From Bacteroidaceae bacterium (GTDB lineage: Bacteria > Bacteroidota > Bacteroidia > Bacteroidales > Bacteroidaceae), in contig JAILDV010000050.1 in the NCBI GenBank assembly GCA_024688885.1, forward strand, positions 62,001-126,000: a stretch of DNA of 64,000 nucleotides. The letters run 5' to 3'. Of the stretch, positions 668-18,343 are shown in pieces. Position numbers and translations under genes: made by a program. Every line of letters starts with the position of its first letter. Position 1 is the first letter of the stretch. Under the pieces are notes generated by a model. The model was not told the DNA's origin. It saw nothing but the letters and a program-made list of their open reading frames with translations, and searched no databases.

Positions 668-2818
668 TTAGTTTGATAATTCGCTGACAAAAGCAAACTG
701 CGCATCATATCTTGTTGCTTTTGTCCATTCTTTCTTAGTTGAATTAAGAGCAGATGCATCTAATTCAGCAGATATGTCTATGTCGACTGACAGATACATC
801 CCAGCCGTATTGACATTCTTATATCTATCTGGTTCTACATCATTAGACAAAGCCACCTTACAATCCCCCTTCACGGCATACAAATGTAGACCATTCGTGT
901 TGCGATGATGGAACAGTACATATCCAATCGAAGATATATGATCAAGAATCTCCATTGAATCTCTTGTGTACTTGATGCCAATAGCAAGTTTTCCCGAAGG
1001 AAGGAACGTCTTGCTTTTCGTGTCGTAGTTCTCCATCATCACCATGAGGATCCCCTCTTTATCTGTTGCAGGGATAGAGGATCCTTCTGTCTTCCTTGCC
1101 GCTTCGATGATTGGTTCGGGCTTCTCGCCCAATCGGCAAGGCTTCACGATAAAGAACTTCCTCAAATCAGCCAACAACTGCTCATTATTCTCTTCTGGAT
1201 CATCTTTGTCAAGTGCCAATGAGAAAATGGTGTTGTCGGCAAAAGGCGTATAGGTCTTGCCTAACACTTCTTGGAAATGTGTCTTGAAATACTTTTTCGC
1301 ATCCACACCCGGCTTTGCTGCCATAGCATAGAAGTCGTAGTCATCTTGCAACCAATCCTGAATCTCCTCACGGAACTTGTTGCGAATTTTGAGTTTCCAA
1401 CCTTCTTTCTGTGAAGCGTTGTTTCTGGCATATAATGAAAGGACAAAAAGAAAGTTCACGTCATAGTGGAACAACAGCAGCGTGTCACGGTCAAAGAGGC
1501 GATTCTTGAATTGTTCCTTGCGATGGCGATTGTGCTGCCTATCCGTCTTCTCAATACCATCATTGGCATAATTGTAGGCTTCATCCATTTTTGCAGAAAC
1601 AAAGAAGTTCGGAATGATATTGTAGCCCTCTGTCACATCGTCACGAAGTTGTATGCCCGATTGTGGCTTCTCACCACGATTGAAGATGTCAAGATTCCAT
1701 TGGATGACATTCCGAGCGTAGGTGTACTGCTTATAGATAGATTCTGTGCCAAGCGGATGCCCCATCTTGTAATACTTCGAGTCGCCTATGTAGTATGTCT
1801 GGCTCGTTTCGCTCTCAATAAGGCTTTTGGCAGTAAAGAGGTGGTCAACGATTTTGCCATCCTCTTGCTTCTTGTCCATTCCGTCTGGCAAAGGATTGTC
1901 ACCAATCAGTTCATCAATGATGGCTTCAAAGACGATGTGGAAACTCTTCACCAGCAGATACTCCTTCTTCTCCGTATTGACAAATACCTGTCGGGCTTCG
2001 TCGAAGAAAGCGTAGCAGAGATTCCAAAGTTCCAGTGCCTTGTCGGAGAAATATTTATACTTTATCTGGCGCAAACGAGTGCGTCCATAGCCTTTCAGAT
2101 AAGTTTTGAACTGCACTCCCTTAATGAGTGTGAATTGGCACTTGATGTCTTTGGAAAAGCCGTAAGTGTCGCCAAGATAGTTCAGGATGGAGAAAAAGAT
2201 GACAAGTAACTCTTCGTCAAAGTTGATTTGCCTTCTTTTATTGACAAGCTTCAGATAAATGGGCTGTTCTTCTTGCACCAATGCCGTTTCATGGCTGATG
2301 GTGCGTGTCCAGTTGATTTTGTTGTAGCCCGAATGTAGATTCTTCACGATGAAGAAGAAGAAACTCTGGTTATCCTTATTGAACTGAAACAGCTGCAAAA
2401 TGATGTCAAGATAGGTATTGCTCAACCTTCGGCTTCCCTTGCCTATCTGAGCAATCTTCGTGTGATACACGATGTCGGTGTCATTCTTCTTGTCGTTCTT
2501 ATAGACAACAATGGCACGATAAATCCAAACGGCAAACTTATACAGGAAATCCCGTTCTTGCACCTCCAAGTTCTTGTTCTTGTCGGGAGAGACAATATCT
2601 TCAGGCAGATATTTACCGAAAGCAAGTTCTTGTCCGCATACATCTTTGAGAAGCACCTTCGGAAGAATAAACACGCAGTCCTTCAGCAGGGTATTATAAT
2701 AATACCCCACATAGTGAATAGAGATTTTACCCTCCACGTTCTCCAAGGCATCAATGCCATGAAGAATGTCCTTCACCTTGGCTACGTCGTACTGATATTC
2801 TTCAATGAGGATTCTCAT
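668..2818 (-). CDS. LlaJI-family restriction endonuclease subunit (McrC-like partner)
   Basis: A 716-residue protein, likely the nuclease half of a GTP-dependent restriction enzyme related to LlaJI and to YdjA of the BsuMI system. A PD-(D/E)xK-type core is visible: a helix with E298 (HIVFEAIIDE) followed by YIGDSKYYK around 343-351, giving the D-x-K pair D345/K347. The N-terminal half has no motif I recognise. It is the last gene of a three-gene operon and overlaps the McrB-like gene by 4 bp (ATGA), which suggests translational coupling and a 1:1 complex. The protein is expected to be recruited and activated by the AAA+ subunit to cut unmethylated foreign DNA. The family call rests on the motif and the gene order; the recognition site cannot be read from the sequence. 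Confidence 0.8.
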   Translation of the reverse strand: MRILIEEYQYDVAKVKDILHGIDALENVEGKISIHYVGYYYNTLLKDCVFILPKVLLKDVCGQELAFGKYLPEDIVSPDKNKNLEVQERDFLYKFAVWIYRAIVVYKNDKKNDTDIVYHTKIAQIGKGSRRLSNTYLDIILQLFQFNKDNQSFFFFIVKNLHSGYNKINWTRTISHETALVQEEQPIYLKLVNKRRQINFDEELLVIFFSILNYLGDTYGFSKDIKCQFTLIKGVQFKTYLKGYGRTRLRQIKYKYFSDKALELWNLCYAFFDEARQVFVNTEKKEYLLVKSFHIVFEAIIDELIGDNPLPDGMDKKQEDGKIVDHLFTAKSLIESETSQTYYIGDSKYYKMGHPLGTESIYKQYTYARNVIQWNLDIFNRGEKPQSGIQLRDDVTEGYNIIPNFFVSAKMDEAYNYANDGIEKTDRQHNRHRKEQFKNRLFDRDTLLLFHYDVNFLFVLSLYARNNASQKEGWKLKIRNKFREEIQDWLQDDYDFYAMAAKPGVDAKKYFKTHFQEVLGKTYTPFADNTIFSLALDKDDPEENNEQLLADLRKFFIVKPCRLGEKPEPIIEAARKTEGSSIPATDKEGILMVMMENYDTKSKTFLPSGKLAIGIKYTRDSMEILDHISSIGYVLFHHRNTNGLHLYAVKGDCKVALSNDVEPDRYKNVNTAGMYLSVDIDISAELDASALNSTKKEWTKATRYDAQFAFVSELSN

Positions 2819-4905
2819 TTATAACCAATCTTCAAGTTCAGATTATACTTGTTTGAGATAAGCGGGAGGAAGTTCAACATAACCTTTCCCTTTATACCCT
2901 TTATCACGTAGTAGCCATCAGACTCCACATATGAATATTGGGATTGTTCAATTGCTTCTTCTCGTTCCTTTGTAACCAGAGCACATCCAAGTACATCAAC
3001 TTCCTTTTCTGAAGCAACCGTTTCTGCCTTATCCAAACCTATTTTCTTGAGCACCTGCAAGTATTGAGGGAAACGCTTAATGGCTATTGTCTCATCTTCA
3101 AATTCTACATGCAAAATACGTCTGGAACCTGACTCTGTATCATCAATCACCTCGTCACCGTCATGAACAGAGTCTTCCACTTCGTTCACGCCCAAATTCT
3201 GCAAGAACAGTTCCACCTTATCCTCCACAACCTTTGTTTTGCCATCCATCCCCACAGTATAGAACTTGTTGAACGAAAGCAATGGGTTTTCTGTATCGCT
3301 TGTATCTTTGAACAAATCACCTGCCTCTTCTGCAAAGTCCTTGAATACATCGTTCCAGATGTAGAAGAAGACCTTGCCAACAAAGGTTTCTGCATCAATG
3401 ACGCCATTCTTTGCCTTGCAAAAATAATAGCCAAGTTTTTTGTCTTCAGAATTAGTTGTAAAGCCAATCTTGTTATTGATCTTCTGAACGAACTCCCACC
3501 AGTCATACCGCTTTCCGTTCACTTTAATCTGCCATCCCTTCCCACCGTCTGAAATAGGCATATACAGCCAATCCCAACGTCTCTTAAAGGCTGAGTCAAT
3601 GGGGAACAGCGATTGGTCGCTTGTGTTCATGGTTGCCCAGATGTGCAGATTTCCTGGCAGAATCATCCATTCGCCCGACAACACCTTTTCTGGAATAGCA
3701 GCCTTTTGTTCCTCTGTCAAAGCAGCAAAACCATACTTCTTGTCTGTCTGCAAAAATTTCCGAATATCTTCATCTGGAGATATGGGATAATCAGATAATC
3801 CTGTTTCATCGTTTCTGTCAAGCAATTGGAACAAGTCACCAAAGATTTGGGCACAGTTTCCTCTGTTGATTTCCTCGATAATCAAGAAGAAAGGTTCATC
3901 CTGATTCTTCCATGCTCCCGTATAAGCTTTCAAGAAGGCCTGTGGAACAAACTCATAAACAATCTTCTTCTCCTTTCGTGGTGTCCCATCAGGATTCTCA
4001 ACAGGAACGGCCTTTGTGCCTATCATGGTCATCATTGGCACTTCCGTTGATGTGGGCTTATATGCACCCACAAAGGTGGAGTAATCGCTATCTGGATGGA
4101 AAGTGGTACGCACATTGGGCAAGCCCTTGTCATCTACTTCTCTCTTGATGGTATTGGATTTGCCGGTACCAGGAGCGCCATAGAAGATTTGCTGAAGAGT
4201 AGATGTTTTTTTTAGGGTGTCTTTTAAATTAGTTTTATGTGGGTTTATGCTACTTCCATAAAGTGATATGTAATCTGATTGCATTATGATTACATAATCT
4301 GTTATTTCTAATCCTGCATACAAGGTTTGTACAAATGGTCCACGACTTATCTCACCAGGTGAAGCGACAACGCCACCTTTCTTTGCGTCAATATTGTTTT
4401 TGGTGATCTCTACTCCAATTAAACTAAGCCTTGACTTTAATTCGGATTCCGAATACAAATGGCTTGAAAATGCAATACTCTTTTGTTTTGTATTGAAGCT
4501 ATTGCTTAATACATTCGATGGAATGTTGAATTCTTCGGAGAAAAGTTTTATAATATCTTCATTCGTAACATTATCATCGAATGACTTCCTTCGATAAGCC
4601 CAGACAATTATATCATATATATTAGGAGAAAAATTTCCTTGGTCATTGAAATAGTTATCCCAAATCTTTGAAAAAACAACATATAGTGAACGCCCACTCT
4701 TATAATCCTTCTTAGTTTGAGATAAATTGAAAATGTTCTCAAGAAAGTTAGAAACGATATCCATATCAACTTCATATGGAACAGAGGGCTGGATAAAACT
4801 TTTGCATCCTTTCAGCAACGCCAAATAGCCCCAAGATTTATTTGTCATACAATCCTGGAAACCACTATAAGCGTTCACTACGGTATCAACGGAAAAATAC
4901 TTCAT
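2815..4905 (-). CDS. McrB-like AAA+ GTPase subunit of a restriction system
   Basis: A 696-residue motor/specificity subunit. The AAA+ module has Walker A GAPGTGKS at 243-250, Walker B FFLIIEEINRGN at about 339-350, and the McrB-family sensor segment MNTSDQSLFPIDSAFKRRWDW about 80 residues later, with the arginine-finger RR. The first 230 or so residues are low-GC, unrelated to the motor, and probably form the DNA-recognition domain, as in McrB and LlaJI R1. A family member would bind and hydrolyse GTP, assemble a ring and activate the nuclease encoded downstream. It starts 2 bp after the methyltransferase stop codon and overlaps the nuclease gene by 4 bp, so the three are almost certainly co-transcribed. 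The AT-rich 5' third differs from flanking core genes and suggests horizontal acquisition. Confidence 0.88.
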   Translation of the reverse strand: MKYFSVDTVVNAYSGFQDCMTNKSWGYLALLKGCKSFIQPSVPYEVDMDIVSNFLENIFNLSQTKKDYKSGRSLYVVFSKIWDNYFNDQGNFSPNIYDIIVWAYRRKSFDDNVTNEDIIKLFSEEFNIPSNVLSNSFNTKQKSIAFSSHLYSESELKSRLSLIGVEITKNNIDAKKGGVVASPGEISRGPFVQTLYAGLEITDYVIIMQSDYISLYGSSINPHKTNLKDTLKKTSTLQQIFYGAPGTGKSNTIKREVDDKGLPNVRTTFHPDSDYSTFVGAYKPTSTEVPMMTMIGTKAVPVENPDGTPRKEKKIVYEFVPQAFLKAYTGAWKNQDEPFFLIIEEINRGNCAQIFGDLFQLLDRNDETGLSDYPISPDEDIRKFLQTDKKYGFAALTEEQKAAIPEKVLSGEWMILPGNLHIWATMNTSDQSLFPIDSAFKRRWDWLYMPISDGGKGWQIKVNGKRYDWWEFVQKINNKIGFTTNSEDKKLGYYFCKAKNGVIDAETFVGKVFFYIWNDVFKDFAEEAGDLFKDTSDTENPLLSFNKFYTVGMDGKTKVVEDKVELFLQNLGVNEVEDSVHDGDEVIDDTESGSRRILHVEFEDETIAIKRFPQYLQVLKKIGLDKAETVASEKEVDVLGCALVTKEREEAIEQSQYSYVESDGYYVIKGIKGKVMLNFLPLISNKYNLNLKIGYK

Positions 4906-4907
4906 GG

Positions 4908-5936
4908 CTATTTGTTATTTTCGTAAGTTTTAATCATTTCTTTCATTATCATCTTGATAATTGGAACACTGACAGAATTTCCTAATTGGTGATATGCTTG
5001 TGCATCCGAAACGGGAAATTTGAAATCATCTGGGAATCCCTGTAATCTTTGAGCCTCCAATACAGATAGTTTTCTTCTGATATCCCATAGTTTGGGCGTT
5101 CTATTTGCAATAATGGTTGAAGCATATGTGTCAAGACATGAATAAAACGCTTCCTGTATTTGAGTCTTAGCAACGTCTCCAACATGGAATCTTAAAGAAC
5201 CATCGGGTTTTTGGAAAGAGTATATACCATATTTACCCTTCTTTGTGTGAGGTTCATATTTTGAATTGTCATGTTTCACCCGGTCTCCAGGCTTTGCAAC
5301 AGAAAAGTGATAATCAATCCTGTTCAGTTCGAACTGAGGAAGTCTTAATGAAGGATTATCGTCATTAATGTTGACGATATCTCTTAATGTTGGATGCCCA
5401 CCAACAGGTTGGGGCCATGAGAATTCGACGTTTTTTCTAAAAGCGACACAATACCATCGTTCCCTTTTTTGAGGCAAACCAAAATCAAGAGATGAAAGAA
5501 TCGTCCAATGCGGGAAATATCCTAAAATTTTCAGTTTTTCGATAATAGTGTTCAGTGTTTTTCCATTATCGTGAGATTTTAGCCCCTTTACATTCTCCAA
5601 AAATACCATAGGAGGTTTGTGGTATTCAAGAATCCTACAGATGTCAAAAAACAACGTACCTCTAATCTCGTCATTGAACCCCTGTTTCTCTCCTGCATAA
5701 CTAAATGGTTGGCATGGAAAACCTGCAGCAAGAATGTCGAAGGTAGGTATATCTTTGGCTTCAATTTTCTTTATGTCCCCATGGGGTGTTTCTCCAAAAT
5801 TTGCATGATAAGTTTCTTGTGCGAATTTATCATTATCAGAAGAAAACACGCACTTTACGTTATTATCGTCCATTGCAAGGCGAAAGCCGCCAATTCCACA
5901 AAACAAGTCAATTCCTTTATACTTCTTCTTTGACAT
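4908..5936 (-). CDS. DNA (cytosine-5-)-methyltransferase of the restriction-modification operon
   Basis: A 342-residue m5C methyltransferase with all diagnostic motifs in order: motif I DLFCGIGGFR at 10-19 (SAM binding), motif IV GFPCQPFSYAG with catalytic C75, motif VI ENV at 114-116, motif VIII QKRERWY at 156-162, a target-recognition region of about 110 residues, then LSVLEAQRLQGFP and the motif X segment QLGNSVSVPI. It would protect host sites from the nuclease encoded downstream. LlaJI and BsuMI carry two methyltransferases; only one is seen here. The ATG at 5936 has no purine-rich ribosome-binding site: the preceding bases are the T-run of an intrinsic terminator, so expression should depend on read-through or antitermination of the upstream RNA. 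Confidence 0.93.
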   Translation of the reverse strand: MSKKKYKGIDLFCGIGGFRLAMDDNNVKCVFSSDNDKFAQETYHANFGETPHGDIKKIEAKDIPTFDILAAGFPCQPFSYAGEKQGFNDEIRGTLFFDICRILEYHKPPMVFLENVKGLKSHDNGKTLNTIIEKLKILGYFPHWTILSSLDFGLPQKRERWYCVAFRKNVEFSWPQPVGGHPTLRDIVNINDDNPSLRLPQFELNRIDYHFSVAKPGDRVKHDNSKYEPHTKKGKYGIYSFQKPDGSLRFHVGDVAKTQIQEAFYSCLDTYASTIIANRTPKLWDIRRKLSVLEAQRLQGFPDDFKFPVSDAQAYHQLGNSVSVPIIKMIMKEMIKTYENNK

Positions 5937-5970
5937 GAAAAAGCCCTCTCTTCATTTTTGAAAAGGGGGC
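5937..5970 (-). terminator. intrinsic terminator abutting the methyltransferase start codon
   Basis: Read on the minus strand, GCCCCCTTTTC (5970-5960) pairs with GAAGAGAGGGC (5953-5943) in an 11-position stem with one C-A mismatch and one G-U pair, a 6-nt loop, and a following TTTTT tract (5942-5938). One base later the methyltransferase ATG begins. The 5' arm overlaps CCACGCCC, which is also complementary to GGGCGTGG at 6040-6033, so a competing antiterminator pairing is possible. Confidence 0.7.
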
Positions 5971-6508
5971 GTGGAAGACGATGTGTTTAACCAAGGCTTA
6001 CGACAGCCCACATCAGACAACAACCATTCTGTCCACGCCCTATTGAGCGAGAACATCCTGAGACTTGTCCAACTGATGTGTTTCCTGAGGTCGTAATTCT
6101 GGTTAATCAGCTAAATCAAGGATGCCAAAGACTCTTTATTTCCTTCTACTTCTTATACAATTTTGTTTTAGATGATTACTAACTACACATAAAAAACGTG
6201 GATGCTTACTTCTGCCTGTTTGCTGTTCGAGGCCTACCACAGCCTTTGAGGAAAACAGACAGAGAAACATCCACGTTTGGAGTATGGAAACACCCCGTAA
6301 AGTGTGCGTTGAGGCCATGCGAGCCTCGCTGCACACTACGGAGAGTATATGATACACCCCGTGGCAGTCACCCTGCAATGTTCTTGTCCTCAGTTCGATT
6401 GTGGTAGTTTCGACACAGCCAAAAACAAAGCGTCAGTAACGCCTTTTATTATGTAGTGCTCTGTACATCAGCTGTTCCACGTATAGGGCTGCGCTTGATG
6501 ACAGATGC
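5937..6508 (-). ncRNA. large structured RNA or leader upstream of the restriction-modification operon
   Basis: A region of about 570 nt between a consensus promoter and an intrinsic terminator, with no credible open frame and many complementary arms (plus-strand coordinates). Nested helices of the 3' domain: TTAACCA 5987-5993 with 6100-6106; ACGAC 6000-6004 with 6090-6094; CACATCAG 6009-6016 with 6073-6080. Middle domain: AACGTGGATG 6195-6204 with 6268-6277, enclosing 6212-6221 with 6253-6262 (9 of 10, the tenth a wobble). Then hairpins 6279-6296, 6296-6307 with 6331-6340, 6311-6315 with 6323-6327, and 6340-6360. A hairpin followed by a T-rich tract at 6421-6448 could end a shorter RNA of about 85 nt. 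It does not look like tmRNA, RNase P RNA, SRP RNA or a known riboswitch to me. It is either a stand-alone ncRNA or a cis-acting leader. Confidence 0.6.
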
Positions 6509-6513
6509 AGTTG

Positions 6514-6544
6514 CAAAGTTACGATTAAGTAAGCACAAAACAAA
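6514..6544 (-). promoter_or_regulatory. consensus Bacteroidota promoter for the structured RNA
   Basis: On the minus strand TTTG (6544-6541) is followed after exactly 19 bp by TAACTTTG (6521-6514), matching the primary-sigma consensus of the phylum. Transcription should begin near 6508 and run into the structured region and the methyltransferase gene. No other TAnnTTTG box is seen between here and the ATG at 5936. Confidence 0.75.
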
Positions 6545-6686
6545 ATGAAAGAAACTTTTTTTTCATTTTTACTGTCGAGCACGAGTAACTTCGGCGAAGC
6601 CAACAATGAAAAAAGCGAAGTAAATGAAATTAACCAATTAACTTTAACCTTTGCATGGATAAGTGAGGAGTTAGGAATGAGGGATT

Positions 6687-6765
6687 AGGAAAGATGCGGT
6701 TGAGCGAGTGCAGAGGTCAAACTTGTTTGAACTATGCCGAGCATGAGCATCTTCGGCGAAGCCAA
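6687..6765. repeat. 79-bp dispersed extragenic element, copy 1
   Basis: Begins AGGAAAGATGCGGTTGAGCG and ends CATCTTCGGCGAAGCCAA. It is bounded by AGATGC/GCATCT arms and has a central inverted repeat TCAAACTTGTTTGA. Copy 2 at 7234-7312 differs at about two positions. It looks like a REP-type or MITE-type extragenic palindrome; no coding capacity. Confidence 0.75.
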
Positions 6766-6974
6766 TTAGGAGTTGCCATGCTGGATGTAAGAATTGCGAG
6801 ATAAAAAAATGGAAGAACTATTTGAGTTGACAGTTAACAACTACAAACAACCTACCACCTTACCACTACGAACCTACTATCTTACCACTATCTTACCACT
6901 ACGAACCCAAGGAGCACTAAAGGAGGACTAAAGGAGGACTAAAGGAGGACTAAAGGAACACCAAAGGAGTGCTC

Positions 6975-7089
6975 TATGGGTGAGACCTCGTTGGGTGTAT
7001 GGGTGAGATACAAACACATGTATGGGTGAGACACCGACACCTGTATGGGTGAGATACCTCGATAGCCGTGGGCGAGCAAATGGGAAGCC
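6975..7089. repeat. 23-bp-period array, motif TATGGGTGAGA
   Basis: TATGGGTGAGA begins at 6975, 6998, 7021 and 7044, exactly 23 bp apart, each followed by a 12-bp variable part. A degenerate fifth unit begins at 7067 (CGTGGGCGAGC). The repeat is too short, and period and spacer too constant, for CRISPR. No function is evident. Confidence 0.85.
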
Positions 7090-7233
7090 GCAGGATAGGT
7101 TTAGTGCTAACCCTAATGGAGCACCATGAGTAATATGAAACAGAATTGGATGAAAATGTGTAATGTTGAGAGTTATTCCGAATTAGGAGTTAGGAATTAG
7201 GAACCTTTAGCTCGGCGTAGCCAATTAGGAGTG

Positions 7234-7312
7234 AGGAAAGATGCGGTTGAGCGAGTGCAAAGGTCAAACTTGTTTGAACTATGCCGAGCGTGAGCATCTT
7301 CGGCGAAGCCAA
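7234..7312. repeat. 79-bp dispersed extragenic element, copy 2
   Basis: Same orientation and length as the copy at 6687-6765, with the same terminal and central inverted repeats. The spacing of 547 bp and the different flanks argue for dispersal rather than one tandem duplication. Confidence 0.75.
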
Positions 7313-18269: not shown

Positions 18270-18343
18270 GCTTCAGTAGCTCAGTTGGTTAGAGCACATG
18301 ACTGTTAATCATGGGGTCGTTGGTTCAAGCCCATCCTGAAGCG
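18270..18343 (+). tRNA. tRNA-Asn (anticodon GTT)
   Basis: A 74-nt cloverleaf. Acceptor arms GCTTCAG (18270-18276) and CTGAAGC (18336-18342) pair fully, with discriminator G at 18343. The D-arm contains TAGCTCAGTTGGTTAGAGC. The anticodon stem CATGA/TCATG encloses loop CTGTTAA with anticodon GTT. The T-loop GGTTCAAGCCC is canonical. CCA is not encoded. Confidence 0.97.

Follow-up and report, generated by a model that had tools for sequence, protein, structure and literature searches.

A candidate class of large leader RNAs with competing conserved pairings, present as two tandem copies before a restriction-modification operon of a Bacteroidaceae bacterium

Riboswitches and trp-type attenuators lie in 5' leaders and place a terminator-like hairpin before the first gene. 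The leader RNA described here resembles them in both respects, and its pairings x:y, y:z and z:y' compete in the same 1:2, 2:3, 3:4 order, but it is much larger (266 nt plus flanks), occurs as tandem paralogous copies, has no Rfam match and precedes genes without a metabolic theme. ROOL, GOLLD, OLE and other large bacterial noncoding RNAs are likewise large, ornate and structured; the leader RNA differs from them in being tied, in most loci, to the start of a downstream gene, with a promoter and the pairing segment y'. Restriction-modification operons are also controlled by C-proteins, and methyltransferase and restriction genes would be targets of the leader RNA as well, but here the presumed regulator is an RNA leader instead of a protein, and its class also precedes non-restriction genes. 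Leader RNA elements before bacterial accessory operons are known from the LoaP/dfn, epsC (EAR) and UpxY systems. In contrast to these, several targets of the leader RNA are single genes; none of the loci searched matched epsC (EAR) at the Rfam gathering score, and the leader RNA also occurs in genomes without a UpxY-model match above the NusG level. In addition, dfn is a small hairpin according to passages of PMC12691694, whereas the leader RNA is large. We consider it probable that the locus analysed holds two tandem members of a leader-RNA class that stands at the 5' end of Bacteroidales accessory genes and forms a predicted two-fold on/off switch.

The window, i.e. the whole stretch of DNA analysed, comprises 64,000 nt. 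On its minus strand we recovered the promoter, the gene-free region of about 570 nt and the T-run before an ATG that an earlier note on this DNA had pointed out. The T-run (5942-5938) is one base off the methyltransferase ATG at 5936, and the span from promoter to ATG contains only two ORFs of 60 aa or more, one of 80 aa with a TTG start and one of 69 aa with a GTG start on the other strand. The promoter and the operon that follows the leader are:

6514..6544, minus strand: leader promoter, TTTG (6541-6544), a 19-nt spacer and TAACTTTG (6514-6521), by sequence inspection; TAnnTTTG recurs upstream of relatives
4908..5936, minus strand: C5 DNA methyltransferase, first gene 3' of the leaders (Pfam DNA_methylase, E 1.2e-90; PADLOC MTase_II)
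2815..4905, minus strand: AAA-domain restriction subunit (Pfam AAA_5, E 1.3e-5; PADLOC REase_II, E 3.9e-40)
668..2818, minus strand: third operon gene, 716 aa, no family match in Pfam or PADLOC; its product may be a LlaJI/McrC-like partner

Repeated sequences were also seen in this part of the window. A promoter-like stretch at 6511-6544 was found again at five other sites of the genome (31-34 bp, 88-94% identity), an intergenic 90-bp segment is duplicated at 6676-6765 and 7223-7312 (93% identity), and the long intergenic stretch upstream also holds 11-bp tandem repeats (6898-6980) and 23-bp repeats (6975-7057).

The earlier note had read the gene-free stretch as one large structured leader RNA. 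That it is large and structured was borne out, as the fold beats shuffled sequences and covariation is strong, but the single RNA had to be given up: alignment A3 and model R2 indicate that, as judged by sequence comparison, the stretch of about 570 nt is two tandem homologous RNAs, RNA-1 and RNA-2. Similarly, the arm pairs spelled out in that note were all located by script, but they do not belong to one structure, since AACGTGGATG lies in RNA-1 and the other three in RNA-2. The minimum free energy of the whole stretch was -202.9 kcal/mol (z -5.9), equalled by none of 100 dinucleotide shuffles, and that of RNA-2 folded alone was -64.2 kcal/mol (z -2.9), equalled by 2 of 200. The parts of the two RNAs are:

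6192..6457, minus strand: RNA-1 core (class I), 266 nt (alignment A1 of 34 copies, covariation; 257 bits with covariance model R1, of which the window copy is itself a part)
6182..6457, minus strand: RNA-1 closing stem P1, 6444-6457 (ACTACATAATAAAA) with 6182-6196 (TTTTTTATGTGTAGT) (permuted-partner energies)
6222..6419, minus strand: RNA-1 long-range helices PA (6411-6419/6222-6229), PB (CTACCAC 6401-6407/GTGGTAG 6234-6240) and PC (6387-6391/6248-6252) (A1 covariation)
6195..6277, minus strand: RNA-1 hairpin y:z, AACGTGGATG 6268-6277 with CATCCACGTT 6195-6204, followed by a T-run (A1 covariation)
about 5938..6135, minus strand: RNA-2 (class II), homologue of RNA-1 (alignment A3 of 27 copies, model R2)
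5987..6106, minus strand: RNA-2 helices PA (6100-6106/5987-5993), PB (6090-6096/5998-6004) and PC (6073-6080/6009-6016) (A3 covariation); the arms located by script are TTAACCA 6100-6106 with TGGTTAA 5987-5993 and (A)CACATCAG 6073-6081 with CTGATGTG 6009-6016
6052..6126, minus strand: RNA-2 helix X1:X1' (6120-6126 with 6052-6058), 98.9% of cells paired, 0 pairs changed on both sides
6036..6049, minus strand: RNA-2 hairpin x:y, CGCTC 6045-6049 with GGGCG 6036-6040, the first part of y (predicted fold)
5967..6040, minus strand: RNA-2 y:z, the antiterminator of the earlier note, GGGCGTGGA 6032-6040 with TCCACGCCC 5967-5975 (98.8% of cells paired in 27 copies)
5938..5970, minus strand: RNA-2 z:y' terminator-like hairpin (y' 5944-5953) with a T-run at 5938-5942 (-15.2 kcal/mol; conserved, with one-sided G-U changes)

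The order of the parts in RNA-2 matches that in RNA-1. A search of 49 loci with model R2, built from RNA-2 alone, also found core positions of the RNA-1 type in 8, namely L067 (E 2.6e-7), L060, L059, L051 (partial, E 0.0022) and the short class-III copies L243, L245, L247 and L248, and missed the RNA-1-type core in the other 41, suggesting a homology that is distant yet well above chance.

Covariation, proposed in the earlier note as a check on the arms, was assessed by RNAalifold and pair counting, and most arms passed. Alignment A1 holds 34 of 44 near-full-length distinct nhmmer hits, all partial hits being excluded; left out were L069, a near-duplicate of L068, and nine weak copies (L065, L074, L064, L071, L073, L083, L099, L098 and L088). 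Alignment A3 holds 27 of 28 RNA-2 copies, L206 being cut by a contig end. In RNA-1, 29 of 43 named pairs had changed on both sides, with a covariation score of 0.426 against 0.063-0.105 for slid structures; in RNA-2, 13 of 37 named pairs had done so and 99.4% of the cells were paired. Both structures beat 500 of 500 shuffles and far exceeded the slid controls, although kinship among loci inflates covariation figures, the permutation and shuffle controls leave relatedness in, and slid controls favour a structure derived from the same sequences. Specifically, both-sided changes were counted in 18 of 19 pairs of RNA-1 PA-PC (80-93% of cells paired per helix), 5 of 7 pairs of RNA-1 y:z (98.3% paired) and 13 of 21 pairs of RNA-2 PA-PC (99.5-100% paired). 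For P1, the energy with its own partner over 120 loci was -7.96, against -6.74 (sd 0.16) with permuted partners, and none of 2000 permutations was as good. In RNA-2 y:z, by contrast with most arms, no pair changed on both sides in 27 copies; GGGCGTGGA/TCCACGCCC is too invariant to be informative, and the class-II x:y and y:z, being near-invariant, give no covariation support. One helix of the RNAalifold drawing, in which a U-rich strand of RNA-1 (A1 columns 36-43) pairs with columns 277-285, was dropped because it showed no both-sided change and a nearer partner was seen by eye.

The RNA has homologues across the order Bacteroidales and scarcely any outside it. BLAST with the 573-nt stretch gave matches in 29 of 45 genomes of the genus, often to the first 330 nt only and several per genome, and R1, the covariance model built from A1 (266-nt core), matched 42 of the 45, with up to 17 matches in one genome. 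Larger searches, in which few candidates per genome were scored so that presence and copy numbers are lower bounds, gave R1 matches in at least 197 of 301 genomes of the family (at least 22 of 30 genera), at least 38 of 295 genomes of the order (at least 29 of 184 genera) and at least 4 of 296 genomes of a phylum sample, including the own genome and three with weak matches (E 3.5e-5 to 7e-4, R1 E-values being rough). The own genome holds two further members, L217 (C49:118333-118592) and L218 (C23:34933-35165), and 54 named contigs with an exact motif match came mostly from ruminant-gut Prevotella and other Bacteroidales assemblies. Phage or plasmid origin was rejected, with no blastn match and no exact pattern match in viral contigs.

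A known Rfam family was rejected as well. At gathering scores, the search against Rfam 15 that the earlier note had suggested returned only one tRNA (18270-18343) for the whole window, and only tRNA and rRNA for 28 loci with relatives (15 + 13); L257, searched alongside these 28, is not an RNA locus. Matches over the window RNA to mir-368 (E 0.0012) and PyrG_leader (E 0.21) fell far below gathering scores. The likeness in length to ROOL-type RNAs that the earlier note saw was not backed by a match to any of 4227 Rfam families, a set that may or may not include the ROOL model. No description of the leader RNA was found in the open literature searched, supplementary tables, which may list unnamed motifs, lying outside that search. 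Judged from the sequences, the RNA appears to represent a new class of large leader RNAs in which two conserved pairings compete, and the window holds two members.

We read 120 loci, chosen by hand for diversity from many more matches; ten sense-strand matches, either cut or duplicating other loci, were excluded. A TAnnTTTG motif was present 20-120 nt 5' of the core in 100 of 119 loci and absent there in 19, compared with 7/119, 9/119 and 5/118 for the three windows used as controls. Among genes of 100 aa or more, the first one downstream was co-oriented in 111 of 114 loci and opposed in 3; six loci had none. A first gene was called in 107 loci. Its start codon was 50-110 nt past the core in 56 of them and 230-360 nt past it in 28 others, and in 25 of these 28 a second RNA lies in between, a strong RNA-2 copy in 17 and a weak match to R2 in 8 (E 9.7e-6 to 1e-3 or better). 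In 23 of the 26 RNA-2 loci where a gene is in view, an in-frame ATG begins no more than 3 nt from the end of the module; the RNA-2 of L050 has no T-run. That the element is an RNA, placed in cis and conserved, is well supported. We consider it unlikely that it acts in trans, as a free-standing RNA of about 330 nt that has its own terminator and lies upstream of the genes by chance: RNA-1 does end in a hairpin and T-run and has its ends paired by P1, as in stable noncoding RNAs, and there are several copies per genome, but the clustered spacing to the ATG, the near-uniform gene orientation and the co-varying partner y' between RNA and ATG speak against it. Some members are arranged differently. 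In L226, the RNA copy adjoins a convergent rRNA operon and is followed by no evident protein gene; in L168 (6711-6980) and L170, a common small ORF of 90/88 aa (MAKYSHDSHITTVEG.../MAKYTQDSHITTVEE...) lies between core and methyltransferase; and in L044:4991-5034 and L075:6040-6001, short-leader forms with the first hairpin motif, lacking the core, are directly 5' of a gene, encoding an apparently RhuM-like protein and a protein like the SNDQGRAYEF restriction-operon proteins of L045/L047, respectively.

The genes behind the leaders are diverse, and their proportions reflect the choice of loci, which was biased to strong, Prevotella-type matches. A single BLAST-linked cluster of C5 methyltransferases accounted for 43 of the 107 first genes, and other DNA-modification genes were of the HsdM/N6 (5), MmeI-type (2), D12 (2), TdeIII (2), N6_N4 (1) and DndC (1) kinds, so that, as judged from scanned representatives per cluster, 56 of 107 belong to restriction-modification or related DNA modification. 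The remaining first genes included Acyl_transf_3, MBOAT, hexapeptide transferases, a GDSL lipase, a glycosyltransferase, CotH, an outer-membrane barrel, VWA, HxsD and a serine recombinase. Of 26 genes behind RNA-2, 24 were of the C5 cluster and that of L067 was a D12/PADLOC methyltransferase; in L168, the gene was judged by its N-terminus only. In L217, in the own genome, the RNA lies 72 nt 5' of a gene matching the PADLOC candidate defence gene PDC-S31. Pfam, run on 48 of the 107 first genes, found no match for 13, and no reverse transcriptase or IscB gene, as a retron or IscB guide RNA would call for, was among these 48 proteins. The Pfam- and PADLOC-scanned genes have no common metabolic theme pointing to one metabolite or ligand. 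The leader is therefore not specific to LlaJI/BsuMI-type restriction systems, with which the earlier note had associated it, because the family is order-wide and the downstream genes are diverse.

Two of the downstream genes, L225:4347-5102 and L065:4023-5696, match the UpxY model below cut-off, and we therefore considered whether the RNA is a recruitment site for a NusG paralogue of the UpxY/LoaP type, the polymerase then ignoring downstream terminators; in passages of a review (PMC7819879), UpxY of B. fragilis is described as acting on 5' leaders. This reading is quite unlikely. Among the 38 genomes of the order sample that carry the RNA, which may be incomplete, at least 13 had no UpxY-model match better than E 3.7e-20, taken as the ordinary NusG level (twelve genomes), or none at all (one), so UpxY is unlikely to be required, and several target units are a single short gene. 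Dependence on UpxY, for which a paralogue in every carrier genome would be expected, was thus rejected on the UpxY-model search.

The leader is also portable. Between the window and L037, a different chromosomal site in another genome, identity was about 80% at the promoter end and about 95% across both RNAs to approximately codon 4, then fell to about 45%, so that closely matching leaders precede two distinct methyltransferases. Similarly, L040 and L043 are alike over 6 kb upstream and RNA-1 and diverge directly after, into a methyltransferase and a serine recombinase, respectively. RNA and cargo were also common to different flanks, in L037/L039, L040/window, L041/L050 and L055/L058/L060. 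The same RNA with different cargo, and the same RNA and cargo with different flanks, show that leader and cargo both reassort. At the sdhB-mutS site, a MutS N-terminus within 1.5 kb of sdhB was seen in 0 of 30 loci, a search with no positive control, as in the insert-bearing locus it was also just out of view.

Such movement, in which RNA and cargo are found together at different sites and cargo is swapped behind the same RNA, would also fit a DNA-level recombination or mobility site, such as an attC-like folded end, whose palindromy mimics RNA covariation, and the element is near-palindromic, for which reason R1 also matches the opposite strand. However, across the helices G-U cells numbered 151 and A-C cells 26, an excess suggesting that the transcribed strand, not a DNA palindrome, is under selection, although it is weakest in RNA-1 PA-PC (31 versus 19, plus 68 other mismatches). 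A purely DNA-level palindrome was rejected on these counts, and with the promoter and ATG geometry they make a mobility site very unlikely. Within the leader-RNA reading, it is possible that the Bacteroidales have an RNA-based means of their own for controlling newly acquired genes, in which a ready-made bistable leader of about 270-330 nt either moves together with defence and surface-modification genes or captures them, so that all come to answer to a single signal. In restriction systems, a second copy, specific to methyltransferases and stacked behind the first, would then make a two-lock switch whose terminator ends at the methyltransferase start codon.

The segment z has two possible partners: y, with which it forms hairpin 2, and y', located between the RNA and the ATG. 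In the 56 of 107 loci with a start codon 50-110 nt past the core, pairing of z with its own y' gave -15.5 kcal/mol, against -12.3 (sd 0.38) for permuted partners, and none of 2000 permutations equalled it. For example, z and y' are CAGACTCCCG/CGGGAGTCTG in L237, TGGCT/AGCCA in L249 and GCTCCC/GGGAGC in L059; by eye, no clear y' was found in some loci, e.g. L062, L235 and L248. The mutual exclusion of GGGCGTGGA/TCCACGCCC and the terminator hairpin, postulated earlier for the window, therefore recurs in the family, in the co-varying z and y' of the 56 loci and in the 5 of 7 pairs of RNA-1 y:z. A static structured 5' UTR, stabilising the mRNA or tuning translation with no switching, would agree with the very stable fold and the lack of a ligand theme but is most improbable, since z co-varies with two mutually exclusive partners that a static fold would not need.

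The switch reading is further consistent with minimum-energy, pseudoknot-free folds predicted for growing RNA-2 prefixes, which contained x:y and PA-PC before z, y:z once z was out, and x:y, PA-PC and the terminator at full length. As in riboswitches, a conserved core seems to be joined to a mutually exclusive expression platform, but the downstream genes are not tied to one metabolite; as in intrinsic attenuators, RNA-2 has in z:y' a G+C-rich hairpin with a T-run and in y:z a competing hairpin. We infer that the downstream gene is switched, and in the following direction. In the ON state of RNA-2, y:z pairing would hold z off y', and transcription would proceed into the methyltransferase gene. 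In the OFF state, y would pair with x and PA, PB and PC would zip into a long rod, freeing z, which would then form the z:y' terminator with its T-run touching the start codon. In many other members, y' is shortly 5' of the ATG with no T-run after it, and z:y' may act on translation. The balance could be tipped by a metabolite, a protein or transcription speed, as candidate signals. Since PA-PC and y:z share no bases, they might coexist as a pseudoknot, and only x:y, y:z and z:y' are strictly exclusive. In the window, RNA-1 has no recognisable y' by eye, making its own switching doubtful, and its T-run is perhaps no terminator, as it can base-pair with the 5' end within P1.

Should this reading hold, a single class of RNA would govern how many restriction systems, acyltransferases and further accessory genes are expressed in one order, Bacteroidales, whose members are abundant in gut and rumen. 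This would account for the transfer of a methyltransferase-nuclease pair to a new host with its control already in place. It would also offer a directly testable regulon, i.e. every gene behind the leader RNA, and a large RNA fold of a new kind for structure determination. For an RNA discovered from sequence alone, the two-state design and its co-varying competitors are unusually clear.

Between the two copies in the window, we noted by eye that z of RNA-1 (6195-6204, AAGCATCC) could pair with X1' of RNA-2 (6052-6058, GGATGTT), a possible cross-talk between the tandem RNAs.
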